Origin: Proteobacteria bacterium TMED61
Lineage (GTDB): Bacteria; Pseudomonadota; Gammaproteobacteria; Arenicellales; UBA868
Assembly: GCA_002171735.1 (NCBI GenBank)
Contig: NHDO01000076.1
Span: forward strand, 16,134-49,191
Reading direction: 5' to 3'
Length of the DNA: 33,058 nucleotides
Positions 1,980-31,549 of the stretch are shown piece by piece (position 1 is the stretch's first letter; each line of letters begins with the position of its first letter). The position numbers and the translations under genes were made by a program. The notes under the pieces are model-generated. The model made no database searches and had not been told where the DNA came from. It worked only from the letters and a program-made list of their open reading frames with translations.

Positions 1980-3401
1980 ATGAATAAGAATTCTGAAGAA
2001 AAATTTATCCAAGCACTCCCCGATCTGAAACGAGTCAAAGAGGAGAAAAAAAGATTAGAAGCGGCGGGTGTTAAGTATATTTTTTCCTGTTGGATTGATC
2101 TTCTGGGTAGTCCGAAGACTAAGCCTGTGCCGATCAGTGATTTTGAAGCGTTGTGTATGGGTAAAGGGCCACAGTTCGCTGTTCATTCAGTTTCCTTTGT
2201 TCCTGAACTCAGTCCTGCAGATTCTGACCAGATTCCATTACCAGACCTGGATAGCTTGGTTATTTGTCCTTGGGATACCAGCTGTGCTTGGGTCTTTGCA
2301 GACCTTTGGTGGGAAGATAGTCCGTATAACATCTGCCCTAGAAGTCTATTGAAGCGGGTGGTCAAAGAGACTGCAGAGCAAGGTTATTCAGTGCATGCGG
2401 GTATCGAGCCAGAATTTATCGTGATGAAATGGGAAGACGGGCAACCGGTCAAGGCAATCGATGATGACCCACGTAGCGGGGCTGGCATACGGCCCCGTCG
2501 ACAGGCATTTGGCTACGATGTCGAATACTCGATAGATTCGATGGGCTTTCTTGGAGAGATGATCGATATTGTCGAAAATCTTGGATGGGATATGCACGAT
2601 GTTGTTTGTGAAGGGGCGTACTCACAATTTGAACTTGATTTCCATTACACCGATGTCCTTCAGATGGCAGATCGGTTCGTATTTTTACGGGTGATATTGA
2701 AAGAGATTGCCAAACGTCATGGAATGTTTGTGACATTCATGCCCAAGCCGACAACCGGCGACTGGCGCTCGGGAGCCCACCTTAATACGTCAATGCGCCC
2801 GATAAATGAGCCGGACAAAAATCTATTTGAAGGATCGAACGGGTCATGGGCGGATCCAGTGTATGCCGCCGTGGGAGGGCTTCTGCGTCATGGTGGAGCG
2901 CTTACGGCCTTGGCTTGCCCAACGGTCAACTCGTATAACGGACTGGTTCCGCGGGTAGGAGGTTTTGAAGGGGGTACCGTTACCTGGGCGCCAACTCATA
3001 TGACGTATGGCTACAATAATCGTTCCGCCATGTTGCGTTTGCCTCAGACTAGGTTTGCTATCGAGAATCGAGCGGCCGATATGTGCATGAATCCATATCT
3101 GTCACTTGCTATGACGTCGGCTGCGATGACCGAAGGGGTTGTAAACAACTATTCACCAGGCGAGCCTCTCAACTCAGACTTATACAACATGGATGCTGCT
3201 GCGATAAAAGAATCCGGCGCTCAGCGATTGCCACGAAATTTGTTGGAAGCATTGGAAACCTTGCAGACTGATGAACTCGCTTTGAAGGTATTGGGCGAAC
3301 CTCTGCGAAATTCTTTCCTTCAATACAAGTTTGACGAATGGGAAAGGTATCACCAGACAGTGACCGATTGGGAGGTTACCGAGTATCTCCGTCTTTACTG
3401 A
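1980..3401 (+). CDS. Glutamine-synthetase-family ligase (GlnT/gamma-glutamyl-amide type)
   Basis: This 473-residue protein belongs to the glutamine synthetase superfamily, which forms gamma-glutamyl amides from glutamate, ATP and ammonia or an amine. Visible blocks are the N-terminal beta-grasp region (YIFSCWIDLLGSPKTKPVP), the metal-site segment GIEPEFIV, EGAYSQFELD, the ATP-site segment MPKPTTGDWRSGAHLNTSM, and NRSAMLRLP...ENRAADMCMNPYLS. Two places depart from canonical GS: the usual NSYKRL is NSYNGL, and the usual PD-x-xNPY is ADMCMNPY. I therefore favour a specialised ligase acting on a small amine, such as methylamine, over housekeeping GlnA. It follows the Lrp-type gene by 42 bases and precedes the HD-domain gene. 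Codons are AT-rich in the sampled line (22/60 G+C), unlike the next gene. The substrate is not determinable from sequence. Confidence 0.88.
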   Translation: MNKNSEEKFIQALPDLKRVKEEKKRLEAAGVKYIFSCWIDLLGSPKTKPVPISDFEALCMGKGPQFAVHSVSFVPELSPADSDQIPLPDLDSLVICPWDTSCAWVFADLWWEDSPYNICPRSLLKRVVKETAEQGYSVHAGIEPEFIVMKWEDGQPVKAIDDDPRSGAGIRPRRQAFGYDVEYSIDSMGFLGEMIDIVENLGWDMHDVVCEGAYSQFELDFHYTDVLQMADRFVFLRVILKEIAKRHGMFVTFMPKPTTGDWRSGAHLNTSMRPINEPDKNLFEGSNGSWADPVYAAVGGLLRHGGALTALACPTVNSYNGLVPRVGGFEGGTVTWAPTHMTYGYNNRSAMLRLPQTRFAIENRAADMCMNPYLSLAMTSAAMTEGVVNNYSPGEPLNSDLYNMDAAAIKESGAQRLPRNLLEALETLQTDELALKVLGEPLRNSFLQYKFDEWERYHQTVTDWEVTEYLRLY

Positions 3402-5700: not shown

Positions 5701-6813
5701 TCAGGATAAGGATTTAAGTACCCATCTTTGAAAGTCATGAACCGCATGTTCACTAAAATAACTTCGGGCTTCGTTGGCCACAAAGCGGCCCTGACTGTAA
5801 CCGAGACTATGTAAACCTTTTTGAACTGTCTCGCAAAGTGGTATGTCTTCTTCACGAACCACGTTGATGAAGTCAATTACTTTCTGTTGCTCTTCGTTGA
5901 GTTCGCTAGTTGGAAAGTACCACTCACAGATCTGCATCGTCTTTTCCGGCCCTGCCGGCAGATGGAAGAAGACGTTGAGATACCCCCCGGGGTAAACCTC
6001 AAGAGCCCAGTTAGGCCATAGAAGCCAGCTGCCAAACTCACGCTCTTCACTTTTTTGGTCTTCTGCTTTTTTATACCCGCTGGCCCCACTCACACCACGG
6101 CTGGCATGACTGTGGTATTTCTTATGCACGGTAATCTGATAGGACTCCATATCGAGCGACCCTTGCGCGAGGCTTGGATGCTGATTCGGACAGTGATAGC
6201 ACTCTGAGTAGTTCTCCACCGAGTTTTTCCAATTTGCAGCTAGAGGAATCACGCGCTCGTCGGCGAATTTGAGTTCAGAGACTTTGGGTGACAGGTCGAA
6301 AACTTCTTTCTCAAATTCCTCGAGATCCGTCATCAGAGGTTCGGCGTCCGGATCAAGATTGATAAAGACAAAGCCACAGAATAGTTCTGCCCGGACCGCA
6401 CTCAGGCATATCTCAGATGTTGAAAAATCCTTAACCTCCTCGCTATGCAGGGCCTGCCGTAACTCCCCGGTCAGTTCATAGGTCCATCGATGGTAGGGGC
6501 AGACGATCGCAGAACTTACGCTACCGTTGTCTTCAAGCAAACGATGGGCACGGTGCTGGCAGACGTTGTGGAAAGCCCGAAGGTTGCCGTCCTCGCCTCG
6601 GACAACGACTACGCTCTGGTCACCAATGTCACGCACAAAATAACTGCCCACAGACCCAAGTCGAGAGACATGACAAACATATTGCCATGTCCGGTAAAAG
6701 ATCTTTTCCTGCTCCTGTTTGTAGATCTCTGGATCGAAGTAATACTGCCCCGGAAGCGTATAAGAAGACAGGGGGTTGTCAGTGAATCGCCCTGGGTCAG
6801 GCAGGTGATTCAT
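5701..6813 (-). CDS. Rieske non-heme iron oxygenase alpha subunit, quaternary-amine type
   Basis: This 370-residue oxygenase has an N-terminal Rieske [2Fe-2S] domain: ligands C85/H87 in NVCQHRAH and C105/H108 in VCPYHRW. The catalytic domain contains ENYSECYHCPNQHPS (E200, H207, H212), and the third iron ligand is likely the Asp in REEDIPLCE. The CYHC..HP signature and length place it with oxygenases that hydroxylate or demethylate trimethylammonium compounds (glycine-betaine GbcA, carnitine CntA, stachydrine types) rather than with two-subunit aromatic dioxygenases. It lies 11 bases after the PhyH gene and 49 before the GFA gene, clearly one operon. No ferredoxin-reductase partner (GbcB/CntB-like) is in the window, so electrons must come from elsewhere. 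The exact substrate is not readable; glycine betaine or a carnitine relative is the best guess. Confidence 0.9.
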   Translation of the reverse strand: MNHLPDPGRFTDNPLSSYTLPGQYYFDPEIYKQEQEKIFYRTWQYVCHVSRLGSVGSYFVRDIGDQSVVVVRGEDGNLRAFHNVCQHRAHRLLEDNGSVSSAIVCPYHRWTYELTGELRQALHSEEVKDFSTSEICLSAVRAELFCGFVFINLDPDAEPLMTDLEEFEKEVFDLSPKVSELKFADERVIPLAANWKNSVENYSECYHCPNQHPSLAQGSLDMESYQITVHKKYHSHASRGVSGASGYKKAEDQKSEEREFGSWLLWPNWALEVYPGGYLNVFFHLPAGPEKTMQICEWYFPTSELNEEQQKVIDFINVVREEDIPLCETVQKGLHSLGYSQGRFVANEARSYFSEHAVHDFQRWVLKSLS

Positions 6814-6824
6814 ATCAGGAAGCC

Positions 6825-7664
6825 CTATAGTGCGGAAGTTCTGTAGCCATCTTCCCGCCAGGTGATGGGAAAGTGGTTTTCGTCCATTATATTGTCCCCA
6901 AGGCGTTTATAACGGCTGTAGATCGGCCCTGTGCCTTCATGAAAATGAGCCGGGTTGTATAGCGCATCACTACGCATGCCGTGCATCACCAATGAGCGCC
7001 TGGGATCAGGAGAATGGTTGAATCCGGAACCGTGCCAGGTCCAACCATGGTGAAACGAGCCGCCGCCTTTTGGCACTTCCACGTAAACAATTTCGGGCTC
7101 GATGCCTTCTTGTTCAGCCGCAATCTCCATATAGCGTCGGTAGTGTTCCGGGCCGTGGAACTCTCCTTCAGGCCTGGAGTGACGCCATCGATGAGAACCG
7201 CGGACAAATTCAATGGTACCGCCATCCCGAGTGGTTTCATCCAAGGCAATCCAGCAACTGAGGAGTTCAGAGGGCCTGAACCAACTGAGGAATGAATTAT
7301 CCTGGTGGTATCCAAGCGACCGGGTCTGCGGGGGCTTCCACAGGACGTTATCCGACATCACCCGGGTACCCGGCCACTCCCCAAGCGTGGCGATGGCTTG
7401 GCCGATGTCAGGCCGGGTAACGACTTTGGCGATCGCGATATTCGCCTTCCATCCGTTACAGATCTGCCGGGTCAGTGAAGGGTCTCCCGTACTTTGCTGC
7501 CAGTTGACCTCGTCAGGGCTAACGCCGGTTTCAAACTCACCTTTGAAAAGCCGTTCGAAAGTTTCCCTTAAGATCTCAACGGTGTCTTCATCTATCAGCC
7601 TTTCGACAACGAGGAACCCGTCCCGGTCAAAGTTGGCTTTTTGTTGGGCTGTCAGTTCAAACAT
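6825..7664 (-). CDS. Phytanoyl-CoA-dioxygenase (PhyH) family Fe(II)/2-oxoglutarate oxygenase
   Basis: I prefer the ATG at 7664 (MFELTAQQKANFDRDGFLVV, preceded by GGAAG) over the track's GTG at 7688, giving 279 residues. The jelly-roll dioxygenase motifs are present: H120 and D122 in GYHQDNSFLSW, and the distal His in WTWHGSGFNHSPDPRRSL (about H211), with a nearby Arg for 2-oxoglutarate. The family hydroxylates unactivated carbons; bacterial members include ectoine hydroxylase and the aminoethylphosphonate hydroxylase PhnY. It sits between the homocysteine-methyltransferase-like gene (53 bases upstream) and the Rieske oxygenase gene (11 bases downstream). It probably hydroxylates the same small quaternary amine or a related intermediate. 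PhnY itself pairs with an HD oxygenase, and one is encoded in Region A, but on the other strand and not in this operon. Confidence 0.9.
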   Translation of the reverse strand: MFELTAQQKANFDRDGFLVVERLIDEDTVEILRETFERLFKGEFETGVSPDEVNWQQSTGDPSLTRQICNGWKANIAIAKVVTRPDIGQAIATLGEWPGTRVMSDNVLWKPPQTRSLGYHQDNSFLSWFRPSELLSCWIALDETTRDGGTIEFVRGSHRWRHSRPEGEFHGPEHYRRYMEIAAEQEGIEPEIVYVEVPKGGGSFHHGWTWHGSGFNHSPDPRRSLVMHGMRSDALYNPAHFHEGTGPIYSRYKRLGDNIMDENHFPITWREDGYRTSAL

Positions 7665-7717
7665 TGATTGCTTCCACGAAATCCCCACGAGACGGGATGT
7701 GGATGCGCTACCAGAGT

Positions 7718-8614
7718 TCAGACCACATGACTAAGCTCGCAGATGTGTTCTTTGCGTACACCGCAACAGCCCCCGATCACCTGAACCCCTTGATCCATCC
7801 AGCGTTTTGACGCAGAGGCGTAGTCTGCTGGAGATATCATGTCATCAAATATTGCTTTGGTTTCAGCTCTGTCAAATTGACAGACGTGCGCATATACCCC
7901 GATGGCGCCATTCCAGTGCGTTTTCAGGATCCCAAGACACTCGTCAATACAGTCGACTTCGGTGTGCATGATACTGATCAGGGGTAGGTTCTTGTCTTTA
8001 ACTGCCGCAAGAGCGTCCTCTAAAGGTTCACCACCCAAAAGACACATTTTGCCATCAATGGGTTTTACAGAGACACCGGCCCACACCGGCAACCCGCTCG
8101 CCTCGGCACCATCAACGCAAGCGAGCAAACGGTCTATGTGACTCAACATTTCTAACATGATGAGATCGCATCCACCTTTAGCCATCAGTACAGCCTGATC
8201 TCGGCTGTTTGTTTCCAGTTCGCCCAAAGACGGCTTCTCTTTTGTCCACATCCAGTGGGTAATCCCCCCGGCAACGAGCGCACTGGGATTCCCGGAACCG
8301 TCTCGCGCCTCATTTGCAAGTCGCACGGCCGCATTGGTCAGAGCTTCAAATCGATCTTCTATCCCGGCTGAGCGAAGGCAATGTCGCGAGGAACTGAAGG
8401 TATTGGTGATAATGATTTCTGCTCCGCACTCAATATATTCTTCATGAATGGTCCGGACGATCTCAGGGTGAGAAAGGGCGGCACCGCTATTCCAGGTATT
8501 AACGATCTGCGGAACGCCACGGCGCTCACACTCTGTGCCGGTTGCCCCGTCGATCAGTATGCACTCTCCGGCACGGATCCGGTCCCAAACCGCTTGATAA
8601 CGTTTGGTCGACAT
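7718..8614 (-). CDS. Homocysteine S-methyltransferase-family protein with altered zinc site
   Basis: This is a 298-residue TIM-barrel protein of the homocysteine S-methyltransferase family (MmuM, BHMT, MetH N-domain). Diagnostic parts are LIDGATGTECERRG at the N-terminus, ADEI-type GAEIIITNTFSSSRHCL, LIMLEMLSHI, VWAGVSV and the C-terminal VIGGCCGVRKEHI (C283, C284). These enzymes bind zinc through three cysteines; the first usually sits in an NC-type motif after the sixth strand. Here that segment reads PLISIMHTEVD, so the position is probably His217. A His ligand could still bind zinc, or the protein may use a different acceptor. In a demethylation operon it would accept a methyl group from betaine or a similar donor. 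It starts 41 bases after the integrase-like gene. Start ATG 8614 has AAAGGAA upstream. Confidence 0.85.
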   Translation of the reverse strand: MSTKRYQAVWDRIRAGECILIDGATGTECERRGVPQIVNTWNSGAALSHPEIVRTIHEEYIECGAEIIITNTFSSSRHCLRSAGIEDRFEALTNAAVRLANEARDGSGNPSALVAGGITHWMWTKEKPSLGELETNSRDQAVLMAKGGCDLIMLEMLSHIDRLLACVDGAEASGLPVWAGVSVKPIDGKMCLLGGEPLEDALAAVKDKNLPLISIMHTEVDCIDECLGILKTHWNGAIGVYAHVCQFDRAETKAIFDDMISPADYASASKRWMDQGVQVIGGCCGVRKEHICELSHVV

Positions 8615-8655: not shown

Positions 8656-9240
8656 TTAGTGTGAATTGCTTAGTGGGGTATCGCCGAGGGTCGTACCCCC
8701 TTCCAGGACAATCTCCTGCAATCGATAGCTCCACTGCTCCAGAAGCACAGTCTGTGCGACAACTTGGTGCTCTAAGGGAACGCGAGCCGACGGAATTGCA
8801 CTGGCCTGGTCAACGACCTGCGCCGCGAGCTCTGCATTACCAAGTTCAGTCATCTGGTTGCGGACATAGTCCCTGATATCCTCAGGCGTTACGGATTCCA
8901 TGTATATAGAAGAGACATGCTGGCTGAGCTGGTCGGTAACGGCATCTGACGTCAACGGTTCACCAGTTGTGTTTAAGAAGACGCCAGTACACTTCGTTGA
9001 TTTGGGTAACCAGGTTATTACCCACTGCGGGATCATTAAATCCCAGGATTCGTGTGCCGCGGCCTTAGACCGATACCAGATGCGGGTTTCTTCATCAATA
9101 TCGGACCAGTCCATCCGAATGACATCTTCCAGAGGTTGACCCGTCGCCAACAAAAATCTATGGACCAATGGCAGGCCCGGCCAGATGGCGAGAATTTCCG
9201 CATCCATGAGATCGCGGACGTTTTCCAGTTTAGTCGTCAC
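8656..9240 (-). CDS. Degenerate tyrosine-recombinase (P4-integrase-like) catalytic-domain protein
   Basis: This 194-residue ORF (GTG start, AGGTG upstream) resembles only the C-terminal catalytic domain of P4-type tyrosine integrases: LVHRFLLATGQPLEDVIRMDWSDIDEETRIW matches their LLLTGxRxxEVxxxxWxxID block. SVTPEDIRDYVRNQMTELGNAELAAQVVD matches the HDLRRT region, and a C-terminal LLEQWSYRLQEIV fits the tail. The catalytic residues are largely missing: the first Arg (TGxR) is Pro, the His of HxLR is Glu, and no catalytic Tyr is seen in the PLEHQVVAQ region; one Arg survives (EDIR). It is an intact reading frame, not obviously frameshifted. It lies 41 bases before the homocysteine-methyltransferase gene on the same strand, so it is probably the first gene of that operon. 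Likely not a working recombinase; it may be a DNA-binding relic or a repurposed protein. No partner elements or att repeats are seen. Confidence 0.65.
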   Translation of the reverse strand: MTTKLENVRDLMDAEILAIWPGLPLVHRFLLATGQPLEDVIRMDWSDIDEETRIWYRSKAAAHESWDLMIPQWVITWLPKSTKCTGVFLNTTGEPLTSDAVTDQLSQHVSSIYMESVTPEDIRDYVRNQMTELGNAELAAQVVDQASAIPSARVPLEHQVVAQTVLLEQWSYRLQEIVLEGGTTLGDTPLSNSH

Positions 9241-9321
9241 CAGGCACCTACTTAAAAGATTTGATCAGTTGTCGGTTACGCCCGGATATTAATCGTGAAG
9301 CGCAGTAAATAGCCATCTTCA

Positions 9322-9336
9322 GGACAGAATTTGTCC
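9322..9336. promoter_or_regulatory. Inverted repeat GGACA-N5-TGTCC, candidate operator
   Basis: GGACAGAATTTGTCC lies in the 242-bp region between the leftward demethylation operon and the rightward carnitine genes. The 5-bp arms are perfect, and the centre-to-centre spacing suits a dimeric regulator. No regulator gene is adjacent, so the cognate protein is unknown. Confidence 0.45.
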
Positions 9337-9342
9337 AAACTC

Positions 9343-9362
9343 GCCTACGTATTTCTGTAGGC
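9343..9362. promoter_or_regulatory. Inverted repeat GCCTAC-N8-GTAGGC, candidate operator
   Basis: This is a second perfect inverted repeat (6-bp arms, 8-base spacer), six bases after the first one in the same divergent control region. Two dyads so close together suggest a regulatory hub for both transcription units, though one could instead form a hairpin in a 5' leader. Confidence 0.45.
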
Positions 9363-9482
9363 CCCAGCTCAGGCGGGAACTTTGCCCCTTTTAGATCGCA
9401 AATCACTAAATATTGTGCGCTTTTCTGTAATTGCGGGGAAGTTATCCGTGACAACATCCTGCATCAGCCCAGGAGGTGTGAA

Positions 9483-10400
9483 ATGCCCTTAGCTATGAAT
9501 CTTAATCCCTTTATTACCTGCGCCGTAACCGGCTCAGGCGGCACACAAGATCGTTCCCCGCATGTACCGCGTTCGCCCGAGCAGATTGCAGCGAGTGCTA
9601 TTGATGCGGCCAAAGCGGGTGCTGCGGTTGTGCACTGCCATGTGCGTGATCCTGAGACCGGCAAGCCCGGCCGGCAGAAAGAGCTCTTTCGCGAGGTGGT
9701 CGATCTTATTCGTGACTCGGACACCGACGTCGTCGTTAACCTGACTGCCGGCATGGGCGGCGATATGGTTTTCGGTGATCCAGAACATCCACTGCCGCTG
9801 AATGATGCTGGTACCGATATGGCGGGTGCGACGGAGCGTGTTGCCCATGTTGCTGAATGCCTGCCGGAAATCTGCACACTCGACTGTGGCACTATGAATT
9901 TTGCCGAGGCCGATTATGTTATGACCAACACGCCTGGTATCTTGAGAGCGATGGGACAGATGATGACTGATCTCGGTGTACGCATCGAGATTGAGGCATT
10001 TGATACTGGACATCTGTGGTTTGCCAAGCAACTCGTTAACGAGGGCATCATTCCGGCACCCGTCATGATTCAGATGTGCATGGGCGTCCCCTGGGGCGCC
10101 CCCGATGACCTGAATACCTTCATGGCGATGATCAACAACGCGCCTGCTGACTGGACAGTTTCTGCATTTTCGATTGGGCGCAATGAAATGCCCTACGCCG
10201 CTGCGGCGGTGCTCGCTGGCGCGAATGTCCGGGTGGGTCTTGAAGACAATTTGTGGCTGAAAAAAGGTGAATTGGCAACCAACGCTCAACTCGTCGAAAA
10301 AGCTGCCACGATTGTGACCAATATGGGCTGCACTCTGATGACCCCGGCAGAGGTGCGCAACAAACTGCAGTTACAAAAGCGCATGCCGGTGGCAGCGTAA
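9483..10400 (+). CDS. cdhC: Beta-keto acid cleavage enzyme (BKACE), dehydrocarnitine cleavage
   Basis: This 305-residue protein is of the BKACE (former DUF849) family, a zinc TIM-barrel that reacts a beta-keto acid with acetyl-CoA to give acetoacetate and a new CoA ester. Zinc ligands appear in VVHCHVRDP (H51, H53), with the catalytic/ligand Glu in RVGLEDNLW. In carnitine catabolism CdhC converts 3-dehydrocarnitine to betainyl-CoA and acetoacetate. The assignment rests on the carnitine-dehydrogenase gene 12 bases downstream, the arrangement known from Pseudomonas. The expected thioesterase CdhB is not in the window. The ATG at 9483 is preceded by a strong AGGAGGTGTG site. Codons are GC-rich in the sampled line (37/60). 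Other BKACE substrates, such as 3-keto-5-aminohexanoate, are less likely in this context. Confidence 0.9.
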   Translation: MPLAMNLNPFITCAVTGSGGTQDRSPHVPRSPEQIAASAIDAAKAGAAVVHCHVRDPETGKPGRQKELFREVVDLIRDSDTDVVVNLTAGMGGDMVFGDPEHPLPLNDAGTDMAGATERVAHVAECLPEICTLDCGTMNFAEADYVMTNTPGILRAMGQMMTDLGVRIEIEAFDTGHLWFAKQLVNEGIIPAPVMIQMCMGVPWGAPDDLNTFMAMINNAPADWTVSAFSIGRNEMPYAAAAVLAGANVRVGLEDNLWLKKGELATNAQLVEKAATIVTNMGCTLMTPAEVRNKLQLQKRMPVAA

Positions 10401-10412
10401 GGGAGCAATGAG

Positions 10413-11408
10413 ATGAACAATATAAAGACGGCCGCCATTATCGGTGGTGGTGTCATTGGTGGTGGTTGGGCTGCACGCCTGATTGAAAACGGAATTGAGG
10501 TGCGTGTTTTTGATCCGGCGGCCGATGCCAAGGCAAAGTTCGACGCCGTACTGGCCAATGCGGATCGCGCTTACGCCAGTCTGACCAATGTACCCCGTGG
10601 GACCAAAGCGGCAGTCTCTTGGCACGCAAGCGCAGCCGACGCCGCTGAGGGTTCGCAGCTGATCATCGAATCGGTACCCGAGCGACCCGACATCAAGCGT
10701 GTGGTTTATGCCGAAATCGAAACTTCTGCTGCTTCTGATGCAATCATCACATCGTCAACCTCTGGCATCATGCCAAGTGAGTTACAGGCCGAGATGGCAC
10801 ACCCGGAACGGCTCATGGTGGCGCACCCGTTTAATCCGGTGTACTTGCTGCCGCTGGTAGAACTTGTGGCCGGCAACCAGACCGATGCCAAGTACATCGA
10901 ATGGGGTAAAACATTTTTTTCCGGCATCGGCATGCATCCGCTGCATTGCCGCGTGGAGATCGAAGGTTTTCTTTCGGATCGGTTGCAGGAAGCTCTGTGG
11001 CGGGAGGCACTCTGGCTGCTTCACGATAAGGTGGCAACGGCAGATGAAATCGATGCGGCGATTGCCTATGGTCCCGGCTTGCGTTGGGCGCAGATGGGCA
11101 CTATGCAAACATTCCATCTCGCCGGTGGGGAAGGGGGTATGCGGGCGATGCTGGCGATGTTCGGACCGTGTCTTAAGTGGCCCTGGACGAAGCTAATGGA
11201 TGTGCCTGAGTTGACCGAGGATTTCGTCAATGAGGTTGGAGACCAATGTGAGCAACAGGCGGCAGGCTTAAGCCCCCGTGAGCTCGAACGTATCCGGGAT
11301 GACAATCTGATCGCGATTCAGCGCGCACTTAAAGGCAACGACTGGGGTGCAGGAAAAACCTTGGCGCACTACGAGGCGAAGATGGCTCAGGCAGCGAACG
11401 ACGACTGA
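10413..11408 (+). CDS. cdhA: L-carnitine 3-dehydrogenase
   Basis: This 331-residue NAD-dependent enzyme of the 3-hydroxyacyl-CoA dehydrogenase superfamily oxidises L-carnitine to 3-dehydrocarnitine. The Rossmann motif is IGGGVIGGGWAARLIENGIEVRVFDP; then IIESVPERPDIK, TSSTSGIMPSELQ, and the catalytic His region VAHPFNPVYLLPLVEL. The C-terminal domain carries YGPGLRWAQMGTMQTFHLAGGEGGMR and FGPCLKWPWTKL, which I recognise as characteristic of carnitine dehydrogenases rather than CoA-ester dehydrogenases. It has no fused thioesterase domain (some CdhA proteins do) and stops at a normal single-domain length. It starts 12 bases after cdhC with GGGAG upstream. A 78-base gap separates it from the TauD-type dioxygenase gene. 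Confidence 0.93.
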   Translation: MNNIKTAAIIGGGVIGGGWAARLIENGIEVRVFDPAADAKAKFDAVLANADRAYASLTNVPRGTKAAVSWHASAADAAEGSQLIIESVPERPDIKRVVYAEIETSAASDAIITSSTSGIMPSELQAEMAHPERLMVAHPFNPVYLLPLVELVAGNQTDAKYIEWGKTFFSGIGMHPLHCRVEIEGFLSDRLQEALWREALWLLHDKVATADEIDAAIAYGPGLRWAQMGTMQTFHLAGGEGGMRAMLAMFGPCLKWPWTKLMDVPELTEDFVNEVGDQCEQQAAGLSPRELERIRDDNLIAIQRALKGNDWGAGKTLAHYEAKMAQAANDD

Positions 11409-11486: not shown

Positions 11487-12512
11487 GTGAAACAGACATA
11501 CCGCATAAACGAACTTGCCCAAGGCGGTTTTGGTATTCGCGTTGACTTCGCGAGTGGTGATATTGAAGATGTACTTGCTGCTTTTTCTTCCAACGCAGAT
11601 GCGATCCTCAGTCGTTTTTACGCCGCACGCGGGCTGATGCTGATCGAGGGAATGCATAGCGTGTTCGAGCGCCCCCGAGCATTGGTCGAACTGAGTCGAT
11701 TGTTTGGCTCTGAGGTTGAGAACTATCATCAGACTCTGACCAGCCCAAGATTTTTCCACGACTCTGAAGAAGAGATACTGATCCTTTCAAACGAGCCACC
11801 CTGTAATCACCCGCCACCGCCGCGCAGTCACGATGATAGGCTTAATGTGCAATTCCCACACCAGGTGAACTGGCACAGTGATCAAAGTTACCGGCGTCCG
11901 CCCCCCGACATCACGTTGTTGCTAGCCGTGCGGACGCCCCCGCCAGATCAGGGCCAGACTCTGGTTGCAGATTGCACTTCGGCCTGCGCTGCGCTCACTC
12001 CGGAAACCCGGGAACGTCTGCGCCATCTCAACGGACTTCACGCGCCAAGCTGGGTCGGACGTTCTCGGGAAGCGGTGGAAAAGGGCGAGCCCATTCTGGA
12101 TCTATTACCGCATCAGCGACCACAGCGGCATCCACTGTTACGCCAACATCCAGTCAGCGGCGAACAATCGCTGTTCGTCTGTGAGGAAAAACAGATGGAT
12201 TTCGTCGATGGCCCGGTGGTCGAACTGGAGACAGGACCGAATGGAGAAGGCGCCAGACTCATCCGTGAACTACTCGCGCACAGCACTCAAGAGAAATTTG
12301 TTTACAGCCACCAGTGGCAGGTTGGCGATTTACTGATCGCGGATAATCGTAATCTCTTGCATTGCGCTACTTGGTATGACGCAGATTCTTATTCACGCCT
12401 GATGTGGCGCACTACAGTGATGGGTAATCCGGGTCATGAATATGTGGGGGAGAGAAAGTCCTGGACCCCTGGGGACGGCAGTGAAATCATGGCCGGGATG
12501 GATCACGCCTGA
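11487..12512 (+). CDS. TauD/TfdA-family Fe(II)/2-oxoglutarate dioxygenase, gamma-butyrobetaine-hydroxylase-like context
   Basis: This is a 341-residue dioxygenase. The iron facial triad is visible as H130 and D132 in VNWHSDQSYRRPP and a distal His in RNLLHCATWYD (about H292); 2-oxoglutarate-binding Arg residues follow (SRLMWRT). The start is a GTG at 11487 with a poor Shine-Dalgarno; no better start lies downstream before conserved sequence. It follows cdhC-cdhA by 78 bases on the same strand. Gamma-butyrobetaine hydroxylase makes carnitine and belongs to this superfamily, but usually carries an extra N-terminal zinc domain that is missing here. So it could hydroxylate gamma-butyrobetaine, or another trimethylammonium acid or trimethylaminoethylphosphonate (as TmpA does). 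The substrate remains inference. Odd feature: a proline-rich insert (NEPPCNHPPPPRSHDD) just before the iron site. Confidence 0.85.
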   Translation: MKQTYRINELAQGGFGIRVDFASGDIEDVLAAFSSNADAILSRFYAARGLMLIEGMHSVFERPRALVELSRLFGSEVENYHQTLTSPRFFHDSEEEILILSNEPPCNHPPPPRSHDDRLNVQFPHQVNWHSDQSYRRPPPDITLLLAVRTPPPDQGQTLVADCTSACAALTPETRERLRHLNGLHAPSWVGRSREAVEKGEPILDLLPHQRPQRHPLLRQHPVSGEQSLFVCEEKQMDFVDGPVVELETGPNGEGARLIRELLAHSTQEKFVYSHQWQVGDLLIADNRNLLHCATWYDADSYSRLMWRTTVMGNPGHEYVGERKSWTPGDGSEIMAGMDHA

Positions 12513-29187: not shown

Positions 29188-30120
29188 ATGGATCTTACCA
29201 ATCACCAGTTGAGAGCCGTTCTGAAAATTGCTGAGAAAGGGAATATTTCCCATGCAGCAAGTGCTCTTGATTTGTCTCAGCCAGGCCTCAGCCGGCTACT
29301 CAATCAGGTGGAACAGAATCTAGACGCGCGACTTTTTGACAGATCGGGACGAGGGGTTCAGTTAACAGAGGTTGGCAAGATTTTCTGTGAGCACAGTAGA
29401 GAAATATTGTCGCGGCATGAATTAATTAGGGGAAACATTCAGGATCTCGGGGATCAGCTTGCTGGTAGCGTGCGGATAGTGATGCCACATACTGCGGGCG
29501 TTGTACTCTTTATCCCACTAATGAATCATTTTCGGGAACATCACCCCAATGTAGCCTTAAAGATAATGCCCGCCTTCAATCTTCACATTCCTCAGTACCT
29601 CAACTCGGGTACTGCCGATATCGGCCTAATTTCATATCCACATGGACTTTCCGGGTTGAGCGCGAGTCCTCTGATGACTGAGGCTTTATATTTCATTGGA
29701 GACTGCGCAGACATACCTAGAAGTAAACAGAGAATCACGCTCGCAGAGGCGGTCCGCCATCCTTTGTTGCTACCGTCCGTCAGTCACAGCTATCGGTTCT
29801 ATATCGATAATGCGTTGGCGGAGCACAACCTTCGTATAGATTCCTTATTGGAGATCGATTCGGAAGACGCAACTATCCAGATGCTGAAAGAGGGCCAAGG
29901 GTTTTCAATCATCCCTTACTCAATGGCCCAGCGTGAGGTTGATGATGGCAAGCTCGCTGCCTGTCTCGTCACTGATCCAGTTATTTCAAGAACCTTTTTT
30001 ATTGCCACTGCATCAAATCGTCCGCAGACTCGACTTGTCCGGTCGGTTACTGACGAGTTAGTGTCGGTAGTGGAGCAGAACCTAGAGCGCGGGCGCTGGA
30101 CCCTTGCAGCGGATAGCTAA
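29188..30120 (+). CDS. LysR-family transcriptional regulator
   Basis: This is a 310-residue regulator. The N-terminal winged HTH is textbook: NHQLRAVLKIAEKGNISHAASALDLSQPGLSRLLNQVEQNLDARLFDRSGRGVQLTEVGK. The C-terminal effector domain is of the periplasmic-binding type (GSVRIVMPHTAGVVLFIPLMNHFREHHPNVALKI...IGLISYPHG). It is divergent from proX with an AT-rich shared region, the standard layout for a LysR regulator controlling its neighbour. The coinducer might be the imported amine or a catabolite. It could also act on the ligase and dehydrogenase genes that follow it on the same strand. Start ATG 29188. Confidence 0.95.
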   Translation: MDLTNHQLRAVLKIAEKGNISHAASALDLSQPGLSRLLNQVEQNLDARLFDRSGRGVQLTEVGKIFCEHSREILSRHELIRGNIQDLGDQLAGSVRIVMPHTAGVVLFIPLMNHFREHHPNVALKIMPAFNLHIPQYLNSGTADIGLISYPHGLSGLSASPLMTEALYFIGDCADIPRSKQRITLAEAVRHPLLLPSVSHSYRFYIDNALAEHNLRIDSLLEIDSEDATIQMLKEGQGFSIIPYSMAQREVDDGKLAACLVTDPVISRTFFIATASNRPQTRLVRSVTDELVSVVEQNLERGRWTLAADS

Positions 30121-30181: not shown

Positions 30182-31549
30182 ATGAATAGCGGCATGATGA
30201 GCGTTGAACAACTGACACAAGCTGTTGAGGAGGGCAGTATCGATACGGTATTGGCCTGCCAGGTCGACATGCAGGGCCGTTTGATGGGCAAGCGTTTTCA
30301 GGCCGAATTCTTTCTTGACAGCGCCATTGACGAAACCCATAGCTGCAATTACTTGCAGGCCACGGACATGGAAATGGAAACCGTGGAGGGCTACAAGGCC
30401 ACCAGTTGGGAAGCGGGTTATGGCGACTACGTCATGAAACCTGATCTCGCGACCTTGCGCAGACTGCCCTGGCTGGAAGGAACAGCGCTAGTACTTTGCG
30501 ACGTTCTTGATCATCACACCCATGAAGAAGTGCCCCATTCGCCCCGAGCTGTACTGAGACGGCAGGTACGGCGTTTGGCAGATGCAGGCCTGAAGGCCTT
30601 CATGGCAACCGAACTTGAGTTTTACCTGTTCGATGACAGCTTTCAATCTGCCTTCAGGAGCGGCTACCGAGGCTTGACGACTGCCAGTCATTACAACGAG
30701 GACTATCACATCTTCCAGACTACCAAGGAAGAAGAAGTCATGCGGTCTATCCGCATTGGTCTGCAGGGCGCTGGCGTGCCGGTCGAGAACAGTAAGGGTG
30801 AGGCCTGTGCCGGTCAGGAGGAGATCAACGTTCGCTATGCCGAAGCGCTGGAGATGGCGGATCGGCACGTAATCGTGAAGAACGCCTGCAAGGAGATAGC
30901 CTGGCAAAAGGGTCGTTCGGTGACCTTTATGGCCAAGTGGGACTACGATCACGCCGGTAATTCGAGCCATATACATCAATCGCTCAGAAGTCTCGATGGT
31001 GGGCCCGTATTCCACGACCCCGACTCAGCGCATGGTATGTCGGAAGCCATGCGCCAGTATCTTGCCGGGCTGCTTGGGCATGCCGATGAGATTACCTATT
31101 TTCTGGCGCCCAACATTAACTCCTACAAGCGATTTCAAACGGGCACCTTCGCGCCCACCAAAGCGGTCTGGAGTCTTGATAACCGCACCGCCGGTTACCG
31201 CGTGTGCGCCGCCGACACATCAAACGTGCGGATCGAATGCCGGGTCGGTGGGGCGGACCTTAATCCTTACCTCGCTCTAGCGTCACAAATCGCTGCTGGG
31301 CTGGACGGTATCGAAAACAAAGCAACTCTTGAAAGTGAATTTGTCGGCGATGCGTACGGTGGTCAGGGTCGCTATATTCCCGCCACCCTGCGGGACGCAA
31401 CCCGGGCATTGGATGAGTCGGCACTGCTTCGCCGCGCCTTTGGCGATGATGTTGTCGATCACTACGTGCACGCGGCGCGTTATGAACAACTCGAGTACGA
31501 TCGACGGGTGACGGATTGGGAAATATTCCGCGGTTTCGAGCGGGCCTGA
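30182..31549 (+). CDS. Glutamine-synthetase-family gamma-glutamyl ligase, PuuA-like
   Basis: This 455-residue protein is a second, quite different glutamine-synthetase-superfamily protein. It has TLACQVDMQGRLMGKR-type PuuA N-terminus (VLACQVDMQGRLMGKR), the acid motif MATELEFYLF, GQEEINVRYAEALEMAD, the ATP site FMAKWDYDHAGNSSHIHQSL, NINSYKRFQ, and ECRVGGADLNPYLALASQ. Such enzymes gamma-glutamylate amines like putrescine or ethanolamine. The SYKR motif and GADLNPY motif are intact, unlike the Region A ligase. It lies 61 bases after the LysR gene and 62 before the tartrate-type dehydrogenase gene. GC-rich codons (38/60 in the sampled line) contrast with the LysR gene. Exact amine unknown. Confidence 0.9.
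   Translation: MNSGMMSVEQLTQAVEEGSIDTVLACQVDMQGRLMGKRFQAEFFLDSAIDETHSCNYLQATDMEMETVEGYKATSWEAGYGDYVMKPDLATLRRLPWLEGTALVLCDVLDHHTHEEVPHSPRAVLRRQVRRLADAGLKAFMATELEFYLFDDSFQSAFRSGYRGLTTASHYNEDYHIFQTTKEEEVMRSIRIGLQGAGVPVENSKGEACAGQEEINVRYAEALEMADRHVIVKNACKEIAWQKGRSVTFMAKWDYDHAGNSSHIHQSLRSLDGGPVFHDPDSAHGMSEAMRQYLAGLLGHADEITYFLAPNINSYKRFQTGTFAPTKAVWSLDNRTAGYRVCAADTSNVRIECRVGGADLNPYLALASQIAAGLDGIENKATLESEFVGDAYGGQGRYIPATLRDATRALDESALLRRAFGDDVVDHYVHAARYEQLEYDRRVTDWEIFRGFERA

Follow-up and report, generated by a model that had tools for sequence, protein, structure and literature searches.

Genomic locus

The window analysed here is the whole stretch of 33,058 nucleotides from contig NHDO01000076.1 (positions 16,134 to 49,191) of Proteobacteria bacterium TMED61, and the subject of the analysis is a short gene on its minus strand, termed INT, which encodes the catalytic domain of a tyrosine recombinase without a working active site. 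INT is the first gene of a run that continues with a homocysteine S-methyltransferase family gene (HMT) and a PhyH-family dioxygenase gene, and it is divergent from the genes for a beta-keto acid cleavage enzyme (BKACE) and a carnitine dehydrogenase. As INT heads the INT-HMT-PhyH run, it is expected to be co-expressed with genes for quaternary-amine breakdown. The window genome is labelled G000, and G001, G002, G010, G013, G014 and G016 are other species of the same genus.

8656..9240, minus strand: INT, a catalytically dead tyrosine-recombinase catalytic domain of 194 amino acids with a GTG start; orthologues in G002, G010 and G016
7718..8614, minus strand: HMT, homocysteine S-methyltransferase family, downstream of INT (PF02574, E=2.9e-47)
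6825..7688, minus strand: PhyH-family dioxygenase (Pfam), the next gene in the operon on the INT side
9483..10400, plus strand: BKACE, beta-keto acid cleavage enzyme, divergent from INT (PF05853, E=2.9e-97)
10413..11408, plus strand: carnitine 3-dehydrogenase-like gene (NF005716, E=7.1e-139, below the equivalog cut-offs)

The coordinates, frame and length of INT were given correctly in the initial annotation, as was the 41-nt gap that separates its stop from the HMT start codon. The frame is open from the GTG to the stop, and only eight more open codons lie upstream of the start, which coincides with the boundary of the catalytic domain. Neither a Pfam scan nor the upstream frame holds an Arm-DNA-bind_3 or central domain ahead of the catalytic domain, such that the arm-binding and core-binding domains of the P4-type integrase architecture are both absent.

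Recombinase homology and catalytic state

The Phage_integrase profile PF00589 matches INT residues 26-134 with E=2.9e-4 and the G002 orthologue with E=1.1e-5; both scores fall slightly under the curated 27.1-bit cut-off, and a single profile match would therefore not settle homology on its own. The main integrase family of the PHROG collection, phrog_1, is also matched (E=8.7e-6 and 2.3e-6), and a profile built from the short form only finds the broken integrase of G001 with E=1.5e-10. An AlphaFold2 model computed from 23 family sequences has a pLDDT of 81.8 and a pTM of 0.80, and the 35 best Foldseek matches of this model in the PDB are tyrosine recombinases, including XerA, Tn1549 Int, XerH, lambda Int and HP1 Int, with a TM-score of 0.61/0.68 against the lambda Int core 1ae9; MrpR/YopR and phi3T SroF are among the weaker matches. 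The alignment given to the predictor held recombinases, which helps this fold to appear and makes the model not fully independent, and a prediction from five close sequences without recombinases was poor (pLDDT 40) and was not used. Candidates that were rejected include a Myosin X match, the only one returned by phmmer for the window copy against the PDB and dismissed as chance, and SnoaL and hAT-dimerisation Pfam matches below cut-off. Taken together, sequence, structure prediction and fold search concur that the homology of INT to tyrosine recombinases is real, and the catalytic-domain fold pattern first seen in the open reading frame is borne out by the structural match of the model.

At five of the six catalytic positions INT has a different residue, with Arg-I replaced by Pro36, the Lys by Ala or Gln61, His-II by Glu120, His-III by Gln145 and the Tyr by Val154, leaving Arg-II (R123) as the sole catalytic residue kept. 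All 18 control recombinases aligned with INT are invariant in these six columns, and the four aligned INTs share the same dead residues, with variation between Ala and Gln at the Lys site; the Asp/Glu beside Arg-I is retained as Asp39. The initial annotation had reported the absence of the first Arg, the HxLR His and the Tyr, and the alignment upholds all three losses, adds those of the catalytic Lys and the third His, and recovers no catalytic residue at a shifted position. From what is known of the family, a phosphotyrosine link by any of its established mechanisms would be impossible for INT, and with neither the nucleophile nor its activators left, the protein presumably does not recombine DNA.

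Orthologues and distribution

Complete INT orthologues occur in G002, G010 and G016 (in the last on two near-identical contigs), with 71-74% amino acid identity and no indels, and most of their differences fall on the third base of the codon. They always lie between the divergent BKACE and HMT genes, and synteny with HMT holds in every species in which the flank is assembled, so that the short form is conserved with the same operon in three other species, as the initial annotation had proposed to check. The HMT orthologues are 82-89% identical and adjoin INT or its remnant. Eight other species of the genus carry HMT homologues at about 50-53% identity, which were set aside as paralogues located in other surroundings and without INT. 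An orthologue of the carnitine dehydrogenase (at least 89% identical) is found in six species, four with INT, G014 with an INT remnant and G013, where the gene is close to a contig end and its neighbourhood is not readable. The two G016 contigs, C27 (L030) and C40 (L031), carry near-identical BKACE-INT-HMT copies (99% amino acid identity for INT and 100% for HMT), which are probably strain variants within the assembly and possibly a duplication.

Outside the genus, the short form is absent from 109 genomes of the order, and 369 genomes of the class yield no further full-length match, the only other match being an ordinary full-length integrase in G374. About 85,000 species scanned with a pattern yielded three loci only, on contigs equal in length to those of G002 and G016, and viral contigs, plasmids and phages gave either no short form or weak matches to ordinary integrases.

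Selection on INT and its loss in one species

Between G000 and G002 the 194 codons of INT align with zero indels, at a dN of 0.204 and with saturation at synonymous sites, and 118 of the 196 differences fall at third codon positions (p=1.3e-14). The codon comparisons, including the dN/dS estimate, thus indicate purifying selection on the amino acid sequence of INT in four species of one genus. Its neighbours evolve more slowly, with a dN of 0.10 (HMT), 0.06 (BKACE) and 0.06 (carnitine dehydrogenase), and the faster rate of INT would be expected of an accessory protein.

Constraint is greatest at the C-terminal end, where a tail of 14 residues follows the recombinase domain.

8656..8700, minus strand: INT tail, GGTTLGDTPLSNSH, codons 181-194 and the stop

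The amino acids of the tail are identical in all complete orthologues, with synonymous changes in 11 of its 14 codons between G000 and G002, and over residues 170-194 the identity is 25/25 with synonymous changes in 19 codons. The tail is the most constrained part of INT. These final 14 residues are absent from every control recombinase and are disordered in the model, with low pLDDT; an invariant but disordered segment follows the pattern of a docking peptide, which the tail may be.

In G014, the nearest relative of the window genome as judged by HMT (89%), INT is reduced to a remnant (L033, G014:C83 662-892).

8656..8862, minus strand: the part of INT that matches the G014 remnant (codons 127-194)

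An in-frame deletion, 354 nt or 118 codons net, has removed most codons between the INT start and about codon 126, leaving 76 codons and the stop, with start and stop both kept. Differences between the remnant and G000 are distributed over the three codon positions as 18/11/17, without third-position bias, as opposed to 25/18/98 for HMT between G000 and G014 and 11/5/46 for that INT segment in the G000-G002 pair (Fisher p ~1e-4 each). The neutral pattern indicates that INT is dead in G014 while HMT is still selected there. INT is thus maintained in some lineages and dispensable in another, and is not essential to the operon. The Shine-Dalgarno-like sequence of the G014 remnant is apparently degraded as well.

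Origin and relatives of INT

In a tree of the family the INT group stands beside an intact integrase of G013 and a broken copy in G001, with a fork support of 93/90. The stem branch of the INT group amounts to 3.77 changes per column, as compared with paths of about 0.35-0.40 within the group, and such fast change followed by constraint fits the expectation for a gene that has changed function. The nearest intact relative is the 399-amino-acid G013 integrase, and the homologous catalytic domain, with its conserved C-terminal ALxxW helix, is also found in the three-domain (P4-type) integrases of gammaproteobacteria (PF13356 + PF22022 + PF00589), such as L091 in G192. Both the G013 and L091 enzymes have intact active-site residues, unlike INT, and P4-type integrases differ from it further in their full length and usual charge, without the 14-residue tail and without linkage to metabolic genes. 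The term P4 applied to the domain in the initial annotation is reasonable but indirect, since L091 contains Arm-DNA-bind_3, Phage_int_M and Phage_integrase domains and the G013 integrase gives no Arm-DNA-bind_3 match.

The G001 relative (L034, G001:C222 9766-10272, minus strand) is an integrase interrupted by stop codons that lies about 400 bases from a tRNA-Lys gene (10661-10736), and it represents a true island scar, in contrast to INT: neither the window nor the orthologous contigs contain a tRNA. A separate observation concerns PDB chain 9i5v_14, which has 401 residues, is labelled 'Ribosome-associated translation inhibitor RaiA' and matches the recombinase-family profile with E=2.6e-6; the chain is either mislabelled or another unusual use of the recombinase fold.

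DNA binding and the divergent intergenic region

A dead recombinase located between two divergent gene sets could bind DNA and regulate transcription from the divergent promoter, repressing or activating both BKACE and its own operon. The precedent for such a role is MrpR (YopR), the master repressor of Bacillus phage SPbeta, which has the recombinase fold, has lost recombinase function and acts as a DNA-binding repressor (PMC10516654). MrpR resembles INT in combining this fold with the loss of several catalytic residues and of recombinase activity and the gain of another function, and both MrpR and phi3T SroF are found by the fold search. Unlike INT, MrpR has a core-binding domain, retains the catalytic Lys and Tyr, has a proposed positively charged DNA groove and is encoded by a phage; INT consists of an acidic catalytic domain alone, ends in a new conserved tail and is encoded in a chromosomal catabolic operon. 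The aligned domain carries a net charge between -12 and -16 in the four INTs, as against -4.8 to +14.2 among 33 control recombinases, and columns 36, 61, 107, 124, 141 and 163, which are commonly basic in the controls, are non-basic in all INTs. Loss of these columns and of the core-binding domain argues against a grip on DNA.

The intergenic region also offers a candidate site that would favour a regulator.

9397..9419, minus strand: conserved element of 23 bp, CGCACAATATTTAGTGATTTGCG, also written CGCACAATAYTTARYGATTTGCG, in the divergent promoter region, with CGCA/TGCG ends at 15-base spacing

This is the only sharply conserved element in the 9241-9482 intergenic region, in which neither an Rfam RNA nor a sigma-70 promoter was matched. 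Five species match the pattern exactly; each copy of the locus has a single instance, and no other was found in the genomes searched. The element is identical at 23/23 positions between G000 and G014, as compared with 73% for the remainder of the intergenic region, despite the deletion and decay of INT in G014. Its survival in a species without INT implies that something other than INT holds it, and from its conservation and location it probably serves the divergent region as an operator or part of a promoter, held by an unrelated regulator or by polymerase. A classical DNA-binding regulator role for INT is therefore doubtful, and we consider an MrpR-like function unlikely. The initial annotation had suggested a repurposed DNA-binding regulator: repurposing accords with the selection and synteny data, and it is the DNA-binding part that the acidity, the missing binding domains and the element kept in G014 do not support.

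Functional interpretation

The account to which we give an even chance is that INT is a domesticated (exapted) tyrosine-recombinase domain that acts via protein-protein contact rather than by gripping DNA. The protein is inactive, under purifying selection and at a fixed chromosomal locus, as exapted genes are. It descends from an integrase ancestor, has lost five of the six catalytic residues and all upstream DNA-binding domains, and carries a 14-residue tail not present in its relatives. With less certainty, INT may serve as a protein-protein module in which the invariant tail is the docking peptide, and it could tune either an enzyme encoded alongside it or a separate operon regulator. The loss of INT from G014 with the operon intact is indicative of an accessory modulator rather than an essential pathway enzyme. 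The more specific version, a recombinase catalytic domain reduced to a non-DNA-binding, tail-docking modulator of the carnitine/betaine operon and thus a metabolic adaptor, is put forward tentatively.

Several points weigh against this account. The protein-contact step is deduced from the tail and the charge, and an acidic overall charge is common among true DNA-binding regulators, such that net charge is no proof. Regulators often sit between two divergent gene sets, as INT does. The intact operon of G014 indicates that INT is not strictly needed. Complete orthologues are found in four species only, three of these being close relatives, and all of the genomes are metagenome-assembled or of unknown quality.

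Another explanation is that INT is the scar of a decaying island whose open frame is residual, as was also suggested in the initial annotation. The neutral remnant in G014 and the stop-broken G001 relative near tRNA-Lys are of this kind, and a scar is what remains in G014. For the window lineage the codon-position and dN/dS results refute the scar: in four species the gene is under purifying selection with zero indels, its C-terminal identity is retained across synonymous changes, identical dead residues occur in all orthologues, and the locus has no tRNA in any species. As a general explanation of INT a scar is improbable. There is similarly little probability that the frame functions as a translated leader, coupling ribosomes to HMT with the amino acids being incidental. 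The 41-nt gap, the GTG start and the in-frame nature of the G014 deletion, which keeps both start and stop, would all suit a leader, but amino acid constraint extends over the whole length of INT, and HMT is preceded in all species by a Shine-Dalgarno-like AAGGA of its own. It is highly improbable that INT helps an active recombinase of the cell in trans, as a non-catalytic partner at DNA ends or junctions, given that no element or attachment site is linked to it, its linkage to metabolic genes is constant and its basic surface is lost, even though recombinases work as multimers and other Phage_integrase-family matches over the cut-off occur in 20/20 genomes of the genus.

The protein-contact account of INT would extend a known theme, as dead recombinases have already been put to new use in a phage repressor and in animal genes. 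The Crypton-derived DUF3504 of animals has lost most of the R-H-R-Y tetrad and is still in use, with DNA or protein contact proposed for it (PMC3212892). It is like INT in that a recombinase domain is kept after loss of the tetrad and unlike INT in being eukaryotic, in occurring in proteins with other domains and in having lost the second Arg, which INT keeps as R123. A wider frame is provided by the review of exapted mobile-element parts in prokaryotes (PMC8987985). What distinguishes INT is a bare acidic catalytic domain with an invariant tail that is maintained, and at the same time being lost in a sister species, within a marine genus; if the account is true, INT shows how far the recombinase fold can move from work on DNA. 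The literature found, of which coverage was incomplete, describes no bacterial catabolic operon that contains a dead recombinase catalytic domain on its own, which is weak evidence of novelty.

Further genes of the cluster

Two other genes lie near INT in the window.

5701..6813, minus strand: Rieske oxygenase alpha subunit, partly similar to GbcA (glycine betaine monooxygenase) below the cut-off of that model
11487..12512, plus strand: TauD-family dioxygenase (PF02668, E=2.9e-43)

The Rieske gene adjoins PhyH in G000 and G014 and is absent from that position in G016 contig C40. In this G016 copy (L031, 2230-5343) PhyH is followed by glutamine-synthetase-like and AsnC genes, and the Rieske, GFA and methyltransferase genes of the window are missing, a gene order which indicates variability in the downstream half of the cluster. 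Regulators encoded in the window include one of the Lrp/AsnC type at 1353-1937 and one of the LysR type at 29188-30120. Glutamine-synthetase-like genes also flank the quaternary-amine cluster of the window, at 1980-3401 and 30182-31549, the first of these scoring below the glutamine synthetase cut-offs.
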